Positions 5,955 through 22,664 of a DNA stretch of 31,743 nt are shown here, in pieces. Position 1 is the first letter of the stretch, and each line of letters begins with the position of its first letter. The stretch is from a virus. The position numbers and the translations under genes were made by a program. The notes beneath the pieces were generated by a model. That model was given only the letters and a program-made list of their open reading frames with translations. It was not told the DNA's origin and made no database searches. The stretch spans positions 1 to 31,743 of IMG/VR virus record IMGVR_UViG_3300037485_000488. One strand, given 5' to 3'.

Positions 5955-5970
5955 AAAATAAGTATATTTG
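5937..5970 (+). promoter_or_regulatory. Candidate promoter for the structured RNA
   Basis: TATATTTG (5963-5970) matches the TAnnTTTG -7 box. An upstream TTG (5937-5939) gives a 23-nt spacer, the long end of the accepted range. Transcription would start near 5977, just before the 8-nt element that forms the crossing pairing. Confidence 0.55.
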
Positions 5971-5976
5971 TAAACG

Positions 5977-6083
5977 TTTGGAAGTGAGACCCCGAACAAG
6001 GAAAAATATTTTGCCCTAATGGGCTTGCGAGGAATAAACTTTTATTCCGGTCTCACCGCAAGTCGATTAGGGCTTTTTTATTT
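5977..6083 (+). ncRNA. Candidate pseudoknotted small RNA
   Basis: The main helix pairs 6013-6029 with 6057-6073: GCCCTAAT/ATTAGGGC, one G-G mismatch, then GGCTTGCG/CGCAAGTC with one G-U. Inside it GGAATAA (6031-6037) pairs with TTATTCC (6042-6048) around ACTT. Immediately 3' of this hairpin, GGTCTCAC (6049-6056) is the exact complement of GTGAGACC (5984-5991), which lies outside the main helix, so the pairing crosses it (a pseudoknot). TTTTTTATTTT follows the helix as a termination tract. The promoter-like box upstream gives a transcript of about 105 nt. A fancy terminator is the modest alternative, but the 8-bp crossing match is not needed for termination. Confidence 0.7.
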
Positions 6084-6091
6084 TATAAAAT

Positions 6092-6628
6092 ATGAAAAGG
6101 AAAGGGATTTCAAAGAAACTTCGATTTGAAATATTTTCAAGGGACGGTTTTAAATGTGCTTATTGCGGAAATAAACCGCCCGATGCGATTCTTGAAATAG
6201 ACCATATTAACCCAGTAAGCAAAGGCGGTTTAAATGATGAAATGAATTTAATTACAAGTTGTTTTGGATGCAATAGGGGTAAATCTGATAAAACTATTAA
6301 TTCATCACCAAATCAATTTTTAATTAATAATGAAGAATTAAAATTAAGAGTTGAGCAAATGCAATTATATCAAAAACATTTAATGCAAATTGAAGAATCA
6401 AAAAAATATTTAATTGATTTAGTTGAAAGTAAGTTTGTTATGTTTTTTACAGATAGGTGCATAACAGATTCTTTTAAAGAATCAATTTATAAATTCATTA
6501 AAAAATTAGGTGTTGAGGTTGTTATGGAATCAATGACAATAGCTTGTAAAAAAATGGATACCCCTTCGAAATCGCTTGACTATTTTTGTGGTATATGCTG
6601 GAATAAAATAAGACAAAATGAAGAATGA
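6092..6628 (+). CDS. HNH endonuclease
   Basis: The protein has 178 residues. A basic start (MKRKGISKKLRFEIFSRDG) leads into the HNH-zinc module at about 20-65: CAYC knuckle, LEIDHINPVSKGG with the catalytic DH pair, the central Asn in MNLITSC, and the second knuckle CFGC followed by NRGKSDK. The remaining 110 residues are helical and unlike the usual McrA core. It could be a free-standing homing nuclease or a phage DNA-processing enzyme. From about 6290 on its codons are visibly richer in A/T than its neighbours, which suggests recent transfer. Its stop overlaps the next start by 11 nt. Confidence 0.88.
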   Translation: MKRKGISKKLRFEIFSRDGFKCAYCGNKPPDAILEIDHINPVSKGGLNDEMNLITSCFGCNRGKSDKTINSSPNQFLINNEELKLRVEQMQLYQKHLMQIEESKKYLIDLVESKFVMFFTDRCITDSFKESIYKFIKKLGVEVVMESMTIACKKMDTPSKSLDYFCGICWNKIRQNEE

Positions 6629-7385
6629 CGGTTATAAATTAACGCGGGCGTGGTTTGACTTTGCCTACGAAAAAAAGGAAGCTAAATCGATTCATACGGC
6701 TTTATATTTATGGATCGTTGAAGTAAATAATAAATGCGCGTGGAAAGACGAATTCGGGTTACCTACTTCGCACGCAATGGAGGTACTTTCAATCGCTAAT
6801 AAAAAAACGTATTACGATACATTAAAAGACCTTCAAACGTTTGGATTTGTTACCATAGTGCAAGAATCACAAAACCAATTTACCGCCTGTATTGTATCAA
6901 TAAAAAAAGAAAATGGTGAAGTAAAAAACCGTTCGGCACTATCTTCGGCAATGTTCCAGCAACCCATTGAGCAATGTTCCAGCACTATCGACGGCACCCC
7001 CTTCGGCATTGTACCCATAGATAAACCTTTAAACCTTCAACCTTTAAACCAATTAAACTATTTAAACGGGGAAATTGAAATTTCAATTGATGTTTCTAAA
7101 AAAAATCAAAACGATTTATCAAAATGGTTTAAGCGGTGCAATGAAGCCGAATTTATAAACGAAGTTCAAAAGTTTAAAAGTGAACACCCCGAACACGGTT
7201 ACCCTGAAATCCTTTTCAAAGATTTTATAAACCATTACACAACCCCAAACGAAAACGGGGGAATTAGAGTAAATCAATTTTCAAGTTTCGGAATTAAAAA
7301 CAAACTTTACGAATGGAAAGAAGATATTAAACACGCTGGAAAATACGAAATCAAAACCCCTAAAAAGAAATTGCACTATGAATAA
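6618..7385 (+). CDS. Phage replication initiator / helicase-loader-like protein
   Basis: The protein has 255 residues. The N-terminal ~95 look like a winged helix (TALYLWIVEVNNKCAW, SHAMEVLSIANKKTYYDTLKDL, FGFVTIVQES). A low-complexity linker follows (PLNLQPLNQLNYLN). The C-terminal part FKDFINHYTTPNENGG...FGIKNKLYEWKED resembles the conserved end of DnaT- and DnaD-like loader proteins. It overlaps the dnaB-like gene by 8 nt. The linker DNA contains short tandem TTTAAAC repeats that may be origin iterons. It likely opens the origin and loads the helicase; this is by analogy. Confidence 0.75.
   Translation: MKNDGYKLTRAWFDFAYEKKEAKSIHTALYLWIVEVNNKCAWKDEFGLPTSHAMEVLSIANKKTYYDTLKDLQTFGFVTIVQESQNQFTACIVSIKKENGEVKNRSALSSAMFQQPIEQCSSTIDGTPFGIVPIDKPLNLQPLNQLNYLNGEIEISIDVSKKNQNDLSKWFKRCNEAEFINEVQKFKSEHPEHGYPEILFKDFINHYTTPNENGGIRVNQFSSFGIKNKLYEWKEDIKHAGKYEIKTPKKKLHYE
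7024..7067 (+). repeat. Possible origin iterons inside the initiator gene
   Basis: AACCTTTAAACC occurs at 7024-7035 and again at 7039-7050, 15 bp apart, and TTAAAC recurs at 7053-7058 and 7062-7067. The block is AT-rich and sits in the linker of the initiator gene, like the lambda-type origin inside gene O. A simple coding explanation (repeats of Leu-Asn/Pro) is possible. Confidence 0.4.
7355..7361 (+). promoter_or_regulatory. AACCCCT site upstream of dnaB
   Basis: AACCCCT lies 16 nt before the helicase ATG, inside the end of the initiator gene. It matches the early leader element but at a different spacing, so it may be coincidental. Confidence 0.25.
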
Positions 7386-8775
7386 CCCCAATGATCAAAT
7401 CGAAAAAACCTTAATCGGAATCCTTTTAAGCCCGAATGAAATTTACAAAGAGGTAATTTCTCAAATCGGACCGCAACATTTCGAAAACGAACTTTGTAAA
7501 AAAACATTCTATTTCATAAAAAAAATATCGGATGAAAATAAACGGCCCGATCCCGTTTCACTTTTAACAACGTGGAAATCTTTTGAATCGTTTTCAATGG
7601 ATGAATACTTAGAAGCCCTTAAAACAAGTCAAAACGTAACTTATAACGAGAATATACCCGAACTAATAGAAACGCTACATAACGCCTTAATAACGCGAAA
7701 TATTACGAAAATCTATTATGAGGTCGGAATAGGATTGCACGAAAAAAAACCCGGTCGGGATATTGCCGAAGAAATGATTAAACGCCTAACCAAACTAACC
7801 GAAGAAGGTTCGGAGCTTCAAAAAATTGTTGAAATGCCCGAACTAACTACAAACGAACGCGAAGCATATTACAGGCGCGCTGAACTTGCAAAATCAGGGC
7901 AAACAAGCGGATTAGAAACGGGTATCGAATCGATTAATAAATTCACCGGCGGCTGGCAAAATGAATTTATTATTCTCGGTGCGCGTCCTTCAATGGGCAA
8001 AACCGCTTTAGCTTTGTTTTTCGGAATGCAAACACAAAAGCCCGGAATATATTTTAACCTTGAAATGTCGCAATCGCAATTAACGCAGCGTTTAATTCTC
8101 CAAAACGCAAATGAACGAATACGATCTTCGGCTTTAAGGGACGGCACGTTATCAAATGAAGAACTAACCCATTTTGAAAAAACAATTGGAATAGTCGAAA
8201 ACAAACCGTTTAAAATTTATGATAAAGCGGGCTGCGGGGTAAATGAAGCAATACGCATAATAAAACGACACGCGCGTTTAAATCAATGCGAGTGGGTAGT
8301 AATTGACTATTTGCAGTTAATGACGTTAGAGGGCTTTAAAGGGGGTAACAGGGAAGCCGAAGTTTCGCAAATATCCCGAACATTGAAAGCCGCGCAAAAG
8401 GAATTAAACATTCCCTTCATTGTTTTGGCTCAGTTAAATCGTAAATGCGAAGAAACGACAGATAAAAAACCTTCCCTTTCACATTTGCGCGAATCGGGAT
8501 CCATTGAACAGGACGCGGATACCGTTGCTTTTATTTGGCGGCCCGAATACTATGATTTAAAAAATGAAGATACGGGCGCGCCTTACACAAATGAAATATT
8601 TTTACTATTCGAAAAGCACAGGCAAGGCGCAACGGGTTCCGTAGGTTTTCGGCACAATTCCACAATGAGCAGTTTTTTTGGAATGAATGACACGCCGAAC
8701 CAATTTCCCGAATTAAAAACTAATTTGCAGCCGAATAAAAACTTTTACGAAGTCGATCGAGAATTACCATTTTAA
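7378..8775 (+). CDS. dnaB: Replicative DNA helicase, DnaB family
   Basis: At 465 residues it is full length. The N-terminal DnaB domain (EKTLIGILLSPNEIYKEV...HFENELCKKTFYFIKKI) precedes a RecA-like ATPase. Walker A GARPSMGKTA lies at about 201-210, a sensor region is in FNLEMSQSQLTQRL, Walker B is VVIDYLQLM at about 307-315, and LSHLRESGSIEQDAD and FEKHRQGATG (Arg finger and DNA-loop region) are typical of DnaB. It unwinds the fork as a hexamer. The start overlaps the initiator gene by 8 nt, so the two are coexpressed. Confidence 0.97.
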   Translation: MNNPNDQIEKTLIGILLSPNEIYKEVISQIGPQHFENELCKKTFYFIKKISDENKRPDPVSLLTTWKSFESFSMDEYLEALKTSQNVTYNENIPELIETLHNALITRNITKIYYEVGIGLHEKKPGRDIAEEMIKRLTKLTEEGSELQKIVEMPELTTNEREAYYRRAELAKSGQTSGLETGIESINKFTGGWQNEFIILGARPSMGKTALALFFGMQTQKPGIYFNLEMSQSQLTQRLILQNANERIRSSALRDGTLSNEELTHFEKTIGIVENKPFKIYDKAGCGVNEAIRIIKRHARLNQCEWVVIDYLQLMTLEGFKGGNREAEVSQISRTLKAAQKELNIPFIVLAQLNRKCEETTDKKPSLSHLRESGSIEQDADTVAFIWRPEYYDLKNEDTGAPYTNEIFLLFEKHRQGATGSVGFRHNSTMSSFFGMNDTPNQFPELKTNLQPNKNFYEVDRELPF

Positions 8776-9795: not shown

Positions 9796-9803
9796 TATAT
9801 TTG
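9796..9803 (+). promoter_or_regulatory. Possible -7 box for a small RNA
   Basis: TATATTTG matches TAnnTTTG and begins 2 nt after a stop codon, as with the box at 5963. I see no TTG at a proper distance upstream, so the promoter is uncertain. Confidence 0.35.
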
Positions 9804-9809
9804 TTTCGG

Positions 9810-9880
9810 GTTTTGATAATGCGTGTAAGGGGTTACACTTAGTTTCAAAAAGCCGGGCGTTAATTCGTTCGGCTTTTTTT
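9810..9880 (+). ncRNA. Candidate 3'-UTR or small RNA with a GGGG loop
   Basis: A perfect hairpin, GTGTAA (9823-9828) and TTACAC (9833-9838), exposes GGGG, and a strong terminator hairpin follows. The top of the hairpin, TAAGGGGTTA (9826-9835), is the exact reverse complement of TAACCCCTTA in the P2 leader (2246-2255). It also matches 8 nt of the P1 leader (AACCCCTT) and 6-7 nt of the other early leaders. It could be made from the box at 9796 or be released from the end of the replication mRNA. A role as a trans-acting regulator is inferred only from complementarity. Confidence 0.45.
9847..9880 (+). terminator. Intrinsic terminator after the replication operon
   Basis: AAAAAGCCGGGCG (9847-9859) pairs with CGTTCGGCTTTTT (9866-9878), with two G-U pairs, around TTAATT, and ends in T-rich sequence to 9880. 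It separates replication genes from packaging genes. Confidence 0.9.
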
Positions 9881-9883
9881 ATT

Positions 9884-21578: not shown

Positions 21579-21611
21579 TTCAATTCAACTAACTTTTAAA
21601 TAAATAAAAAA

Positions 21612-22664
21612 ATGATTTTAGATCCTTCAGATTTGACCTTCAACGGTCAAGAGGCAAAAGACATAGGCGAAGCCGTAATAGAAAGCATTTTCGAAAATCC
21701 AGCGGTTGCGGATTTAATGACGGTTTATGATGGAATTGTTACTAAAAAACAAATTCCGTTTTTAGGTACTTTGTCAAAAATTACAAAGAAAGACGCGGGT
21801 TGCGGTTCGGGTGTTTCCGCGAATAATATTCCAATGACTGAAAAGTTTTGGGAACCTGAAAACCTTAAAATTTGGTTGCAACTTTGCGCCGAAGATTTAT
21901 TGAATTCATTTTGGGTTTACGCTCAACGTTTAGGAATGGATCGTTCGGACGTTACAGGAACTACAATCGCATCGTTTGTTGTTGAACGTATGACGGCGGC
22001 GGCTCAAGAAGATTTACTTCGTATCATTTGGTTTAATGATAAGGACGCGGATAATGTTTCGGGTGGCGGTGTAATTAAAAACGGCGTTTCTTTAACCGAT
22101 TACAATATTATCGATGGTTTATGGAAACAAATTTTCGCGGTTGTTGCTGCAAGTCCAGCGCGTTTAACTGCAATTTCTGAAAATGCGGGTGCAAATAAAG
22201 CGGCTCAATTAAACTTAGCAGCATCAAAAGCGTTTTCAACTTTCCAAAAAATGATGGCAGCGGCGGATTCACGTTTAAAAAGCGCGCCCGATAAAATTCT
22301 ACTTTGTACTACTACTTTGTTAGAAAATTACGCGGTTTATTTAGAAAGTCAAGGGACGGATGCTTCGTTTATTCGCATTGAAAACGGATATTCTACGCTT
22401 CGTTTTCGTAACGTTACGATTTACGGAATTGATTTTTGGGATCGTACAATCCAAGCGGATTTCGATAATGGTACAACCTACGATTTGCCAAACCGCGCGT
22501 TACTTACAACTAAAATGAATTTAGCGGTTGGTAGCGATAAATTAGCGGATGCCGAAACTTTCAAAGTTTATTATTCCGAAGATACTGAGCTAAATAATTT
22601 CAAGGGCAAGTATCGTGTAGATGCAAAACTTTTGCAAGATTATTTAATTCAAGCAGCTTATTAA
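21612..22664 (+). CDS. Major capsid protein
   Basis: The protein has 350 residues and no cysteine-rich or enzyme motifs. It lies directly after the protease/scaffold gene and is followed by its own strong terminator, both usual for capsid genes. The N-terminal arm (NGQEAKDIGEAVIESIFENPAV, QIPFLGTLSKITKK) and the middle (KILLCTTTLLENYAVYLES, YGIDFWDRTIQADF, RALLTTKMNLAVG) read like an HK97-fold capsid of the Bacteroidota phage type. It forms the icosahedral shell. Confidence 0.88.
   Translation: MILDPSDLTFNGQEAKDIGEAVIESIFENPAVADLMTVYDGIVTKKQIPFLGTLSKITKKDAGCGSGVSANNIPMTEKFWEPENLKIWLQLCAEDLLNSFWVYAQRLGMDRSDVTGTTIASFVVERMTAAAQEDLLRIIWFNDKDADNVSGGGVIKNGVSLTDYNIIDGLWKQIFAVVAASPARLTAISENAGANKAAQLNLAASKAFSTFQKMMAAADSRLKSAPDKILLCTTTLLENYAVYLESQGTDASFIRIENGYSTLRFRNVTIYGIDFWDRTIQADFDNGTTYDLPNRALLTTKMNLAVGSDKLADAETFKVYYSEDTELNNFKGKYRVDAKLLQDYLIQAAY

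Follow-up and report, generated by a model that had tools for sequence, protein, structure and literature searches.

The window analysed here (the whole stretch of 31,743 nucleotides from IMG/VR virus record IMGVR_UViG_3300037485_000488) carries on its plus strand a replication operon headed by a structured RNA. The first operon gene in this phage encodes an HNH endonuclease (6092-6628; PF01844, E 6e-12), which lies outside the conserved unit, and is followed by genes for a replication initiator-like protein (6618-7385) and the DnaB replicative helicase (7378-8775; PF03796, E 8e-73), all on the plus strand. The initiator-like protein has no direct Pfam or PHROG match; it belongs to cluster c2, whose members match DUF6291 or the phage O-like initiation family. 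Upstream of these genes, the covariance model R1 matches a leader RNA with a pseudoknot at 5974-6081 on the plus strand (96.2 bits, E 2e-17), whose transcription would start near position 5974. It is preceded at 5963-5970 by TATATTTG, a predicted -7 promoter box of Bacteroidota type with the motif TAnnTT(TG/TA/AG), and its terminator ends in a U-tract at 6074-6079, 12 nt before the HNH start codon at 6092. Because the genes from HNH to DnaB (6092-8775) overlap or nearly abut, RNA polymerase must pass this terminator to reach DnaB. The preliminary description of this DNA had proposed a compact pseudoknotted RNA with its own promoter-like box and U-tract, and this reading is supported by our analysis; both flanking signals lie where it had placed them. 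It understates the case: the window RNA belongs to a conserved family with members of ~108 nt.

The RNA begins with a hairpin, P1 (5976-5981 paired with 5992-5997), which was absent from the elements listed previously and which encloses in its loop the 5' strand of the pseudoknot helix (GTGAGACC, 5984-5991). An unpaired linker, first A-rich and then U-rich (5998-6012; 14-19 nt across the family, with conserved A residues), leads to the P2 terminator stem (6013-6029/6057-6073), within which lie the P3 hairpin (6031-6048; 7 bp and a 4-nt loop) and the 3' strand of the pseudoknot helix (GGTCTCAC, 6049-6056), the latter directly abutting the P2 3' strand. P2 in the window contains one G-U pair and one G.G mismatch, the single mismatch previously reported for the main helix, and the inner tetraloop hairpin and the exact 8-nt crossing pairing had also been described correctly. 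GTGAGACC and GGTCTCAC are exact complements, and each occurs only once within the window. Because residues of the P1 loop (the 5' arm) form the crossing helix with a segment outside the hairpin, the structure is a classic H-type pseudoknot. The crossing helix is separated by 2 nt from the P1 5' strand, by 0 nt from the P1 3' strand and by 0 nt from P2, and these spacings are constant across the family, suggesting that P1, the pseudoknot and P2 may stack into a single rod. The folding z-score is -4.8 for 5963-6090 and -4.5 for the RNA alone, and no shuffled sequence equalled it. By our own estimate, a single exact 8-nt crossing complement arises by chance in roughly 10% of cases per ~110 nt, which is not rare; thus the complement in the window alone could be fortuitous, and the crossing helix is considered real because its homologues keep it.

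Homologues were collected with the small gene that lies 5' of the RNA as bait, which yielded 73 viral loci, about 15 of them containing the RNA according to a profile search. Pattern scans provided further viral contigs with the RNA, and R1 was built from 23 copies, with the crossing helix left out of the model. R1 was also run on DnaB-bearing contigs gathered independently of the RNA, in which the RNA was found upstream of DnaB in 57 of 77 loci; most of the other 20 loci are cut by the contig end, and at least two are genuine absences. The resulting family comprises 82 copies (70 distinct), all in uncultured phage contigs. No close relative was detected among phage isolates, whose best DnaB matches are about 33% identical, and the host, for which the promoter type is the one indication, may belong to Bacteroidota. 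A pattern scan of bacterial genomes returned two matches, both attributable to chance; since the pattern recovers only 4 of 53 divergent copies, this absence holds for the window-like subgroup only. The plasmid search gave nothing useful. Two kinds of additional match were rejected: model matches on the opposite strand, which reflect a self-complementary stem, and a putative second copy at 21600-21647 on the minus strand of the window, a chance match inside the coding sequence of ORF 21612-22664 that recurs in relatives. With Rfam 15, no family matched the window at the gathering threshold (the best permissive matches were far below it) and none matched the RNA in six relatives, in agreement with the earlier view that it could not be assigned to a known class, and we found no description of the pseudoknotted leader RNA in the open-access full-text literature.

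Comparison of these copies provides the main evidence for the fold. The crossing helix consists of eight Watson-Crick pairs out of eight in all 82 copies, represented by 17 different 8-mers without any G-U pair. This count is free of alignment bias because R1 did not include this helix, and the 53 copies derived from DnaB contigs, which were found without reference to the RNA, all have a fully Watson-Crick crossing helix (15 alleles). Among the 70 distinct rows, it is 100% paired and covaries at 5/8 pairs; the top three covarying column pairs of the whole alignment are pseudoknot pairs, and ranks one to eight are all model pairs. P1 is paired in 96.1% of cells, with 6/7 pairs changed on both sides, P2 is also 96.1% paired, with double changes in 12/17 pairs, and the outer pairs of P3 covary; its length is variable in the family. 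For the stems, shifting the partners by one base reduces pairing from 94% to about 40%. Hence the compensatory changes that the preliminary description had suggested seeking with a covariance model and homologues are present in the crossing helix, P1 and P2, and the outcome that would have spoken against it, homologues that keep the terminator helix but lose the crossing complement, was seen in 0/82 copies. Between close relatives (less than 6% apart elsewhere), differences per site amount to 0.048 in the pseudoknot, 0.032 in P1 and 0.014 in P2, showing that the pseudoknot evolves faster than the other stems without acquiring a mismatch or a G-U pair. Several pseudoknot alleles recur in different lineages, and identical RNAs precede different initiator genes (L190/L201 vs L193; L172 vs L175). 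Selection on a type tag would be one explanation of such an allele pattern, and convergence, if only a few sequences are permitted, would be another.

At the sequence level, the last position of a TAnnTT(TG/TA/AG) box is 1-4 nt upstream of the RNA in 78/78 distinct contexts, where chance would provide one in about 3% per context. The distance from the aligned RNA end to a start codon on the same strand is -2 to 17 nt in all 78; this codon often comes right after the U-tract, which itself follows P2 in all aligned copies. The layout of an intrinsic-terminator leader (promoter box, stem with U-tract, same-strand gene) was therefore found in every one of the 78 contexts, and there is no space for another complete promoter because the ATG sits directly behind the RNA. 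From this arrangement, the replication operon's 5' untranslated leader is predicted to consist almost wholly of the RNA, and an operon leader is more likely than a stand-alone RNA gene. In one lineage (L172, L166, L160 and others; 22/78 contexts), TAnnTTAG followed by CA replaces TAnnTTTG, and this variant may possibly represent a different promoter class.

By examining the genes behind the RNA, we found that the first one varies: it may encode a ~67-aa protein, an HNH endonuclease, a Mom-family protein, a methyltransferase, nucleases or the initiator itself. The preliminary description correctly placed an HNH gene 3' of the RNA, but HNH is the first gene in the window only, and the association is regarded as incidental: what the RNA heads is the replication operon, with a first gene that varies. 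A homing RNA linked to HNH (intron, HEARO or omega RNA) was rejected since other copies adjoin other genes, and the RNA was not found in five whole records with HNH relatives. At L010, the replication operon opens with a Mom-family DNA-modification gene (PF25680, E 2e-31). Behind the first gene follow the initiator-like gene and DnaB, or, in lineage C, a VapE/BT4734-type primase-helicase; as the lineage C RNA heads the operon of the latter, the position of the RNA is kept despite unrelated replication genes. The genes behind a riboswitch would be expected to serve one pathway; here the operon is always one of replication, and its first gene varies. In two contigs without the RNA, the upstream stop codon overlaps the initiator start (L136) or the upstream gene reaches within a few bases of it (L133), implying that the RNA unit is a discrete cassette and is not indispensable. 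There is one RNA copy per record except in two contigs, G077 (an IMG/VR contig of 52227 bases; L205, L206) and G014 (L118, L119), which have two copies each, 35-38 kb apart. In G077 as in G014, each RNA copy stands ahead of a separate initiator gene and DnaB is present twice, so each contig probably represents two related phages joined. The two DnaB starts in G077 are identical while the pseudoknot alleles differ.

Considering that promoter, fully structured leader, terminator and start codon follow each other in this order, we lean towards the reading that the RNA is a cis-acting structured leader, or attenuator, in which a terminated short RNA is the main product and read-through yields the mRNA. 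Transcription would start at the TAnnTTTG promoter just upstream of P1, P1 would fold first, and the emerging 3' pseudoknot strand would pair with the P1 loop, so that the pseudoknot helix stacks directly onto the growing P2 terminator stem, which ends in the U-tract. The pseudoknot probably aids formation of P2 because it sets the P2 3' strand beside a preformed helix. The majority of transcripts would then end at the U-tract as a stable RNA of ~105 nt whose two ends are base-paired. A minority would continue past it to give the replication mRNA, with a frequency that depends on how the fold is formed or bound; a signal or factor may alter this read-through. Being in all likelihood the whole untranslated start of the operon, the RNA probably sets the level at which the replication machinery is produced. 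Several observations count against attenuation: no competing helix, such as an alternative antiterminator helix, is found among the strongest covarying pairs, the same RNA precedes different first genes, and simple attenuation leaves the rapid but perfectly compensated change of the pseudoknot unexplained. An H-type pseudoknot is also present in the preQ1-I, fluoride and ZTP riboswitches, in which aptamer and terminator strands compete. The leader RNA resembles them in that its pseudoknot, too, adjoins an intrinsic terminator within a 5' leader, but differs in that pseudoknot and terminator stem are interleaved and can form together.

A distinctly less probable reading is that the ~105-nt terminated transcript is a trans-acting small RNA, the actual product, directed at host or phage targets, and that the operon merely receives read-through. 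The own promoter-like box, the helix-closed ends, the terminator in all copies, the essentially single copy per phage and the constancy of the RNA while first genes change would all fit this, and IsrK of Gifsy-1 is a precedent, as a short RNA from a prophage promoter ends there at an intrinsic terminator and downstream genes are expressed by read-through (PMC4825925). The leader RNA shares with IsrK this arrangement of phage promoter, short terminator-ended RNA and (here predicted) read-through; however, IsrK belongs to a different host phylum, the gene downstream of it is an antiterminator locus rather than a replication gene, and no pseudoknot is mentioned for it (PMC4825925). Moreover, a pure small RNA gene needs neither a same-strand start codon within ~20 nt, found in 78/78 contexts, nor constant placement at the replication operon, and, with its variable linker, the RNA lacks a conserved unpaired seed of any great length. 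With IsrK and P4 CI as precedents (PMC4825925), the terminated form of a cis-acting leader may act in trans as well.

A device for immunity or copy control resembling P4 CI or P1 C4, in which the 8-nt arm of the short RNA pairs with the leader of another phage and stops its replication operon, appears unlikely. The pseudoknot sequence would then be a specificity type, which would suit the 17 perfectly matched 8-mers, several of them recurrent across lineages and none with G-U, as well as the faster change of the pseudoknot (0.048 vs 0.014-0.032 differences per site in the other stems). Like P4 CI and P1 C4, the leader RNA lies at the head of a replication operon, has short complementary segments and is associated with (here predicted) premature termination (P4 according to PMC4825925). 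On the other hand, CI arises by processing of a longer transcript and acts by pairing in trans, whereas the pairing in the leader RNA is built for one molecule, in keeping with the fixed spacing (2, 0, 0 nt). Few letters are allowed per position, and the recurrence of alleles may thus be convergence; no signs of lysogeny were seen in a partial search. The C4 antisense family is included in Rfam 15, and yet whole-library scans of the window and six relatives gave no C4 match. It is similarly improbable that the 8-mer is a phage type tag by which terminated leader RNAs recognise the replication leader of any phage carrying an identical tag and close it, an RNA-only exclusion among lytic Bacteroidota phages in which selection would keep the tags diverse.

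Slightly more doubtful still is a mobile cassette of promoter and terminator located where genes are exchanged, with the fold serving termination only. PeSLs of T4-like phages are cassettes of a promoter and a simple stem-loop that occur in several places at variable intergenic junctions. The leader RNA is likewise a promoter and stem-loop unit at variable junctions, with clean empty sites in two relatives and variable neighbour genes; but it is one pseudoknotted RNA in a single place per phage, always at replication operons, and several copies per genome at different junctions were not observed save in the two probable double-phage contigs. P1 and the perfectly kept crossing helix would also be superfluous for a terminator. 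Finally, a type III toxin-antitoxin RNA was rejected (no repeats, first genes not toxin-like), a phi29-type packaging RNA is unlikely as the phage encodes a terminase large subunit, and an origin or primer RNA is weakened by one relative, a 34-kb contig, without the RNA.

The timing of phage replication operons is usually credited to proteins and promoters. Here one RNA fold lies between the promoter and the replication genes and is kept across phages with unrelated replication enzymes; if it attenuates, it would be a widespread RNA switch acting on the DNA-replication decision in a phage group without a close cultured relative in the searched collections. It also offers a clean natural case of a terminator-interleaved pseudoknot, with 17 ready compensatory variants for study.

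Two other features of the window were observed. The gene at 30035-30604 matches kinase families and resembles the sensor and dimerisation part of a histidine kinase, with no obvious catalytic domain. The region 9796-9883 contains a second promoter-like box (TATATTTG), a ~75-nt fold (z -4.1), the hairpin GTGTAAGGGGTTACAC and a strong intrinsic terminator, after which a further -7-like box lies ahead of the packaging genes; this element is kept in 15 relatives, including both that are without the pseudoknot RNA.
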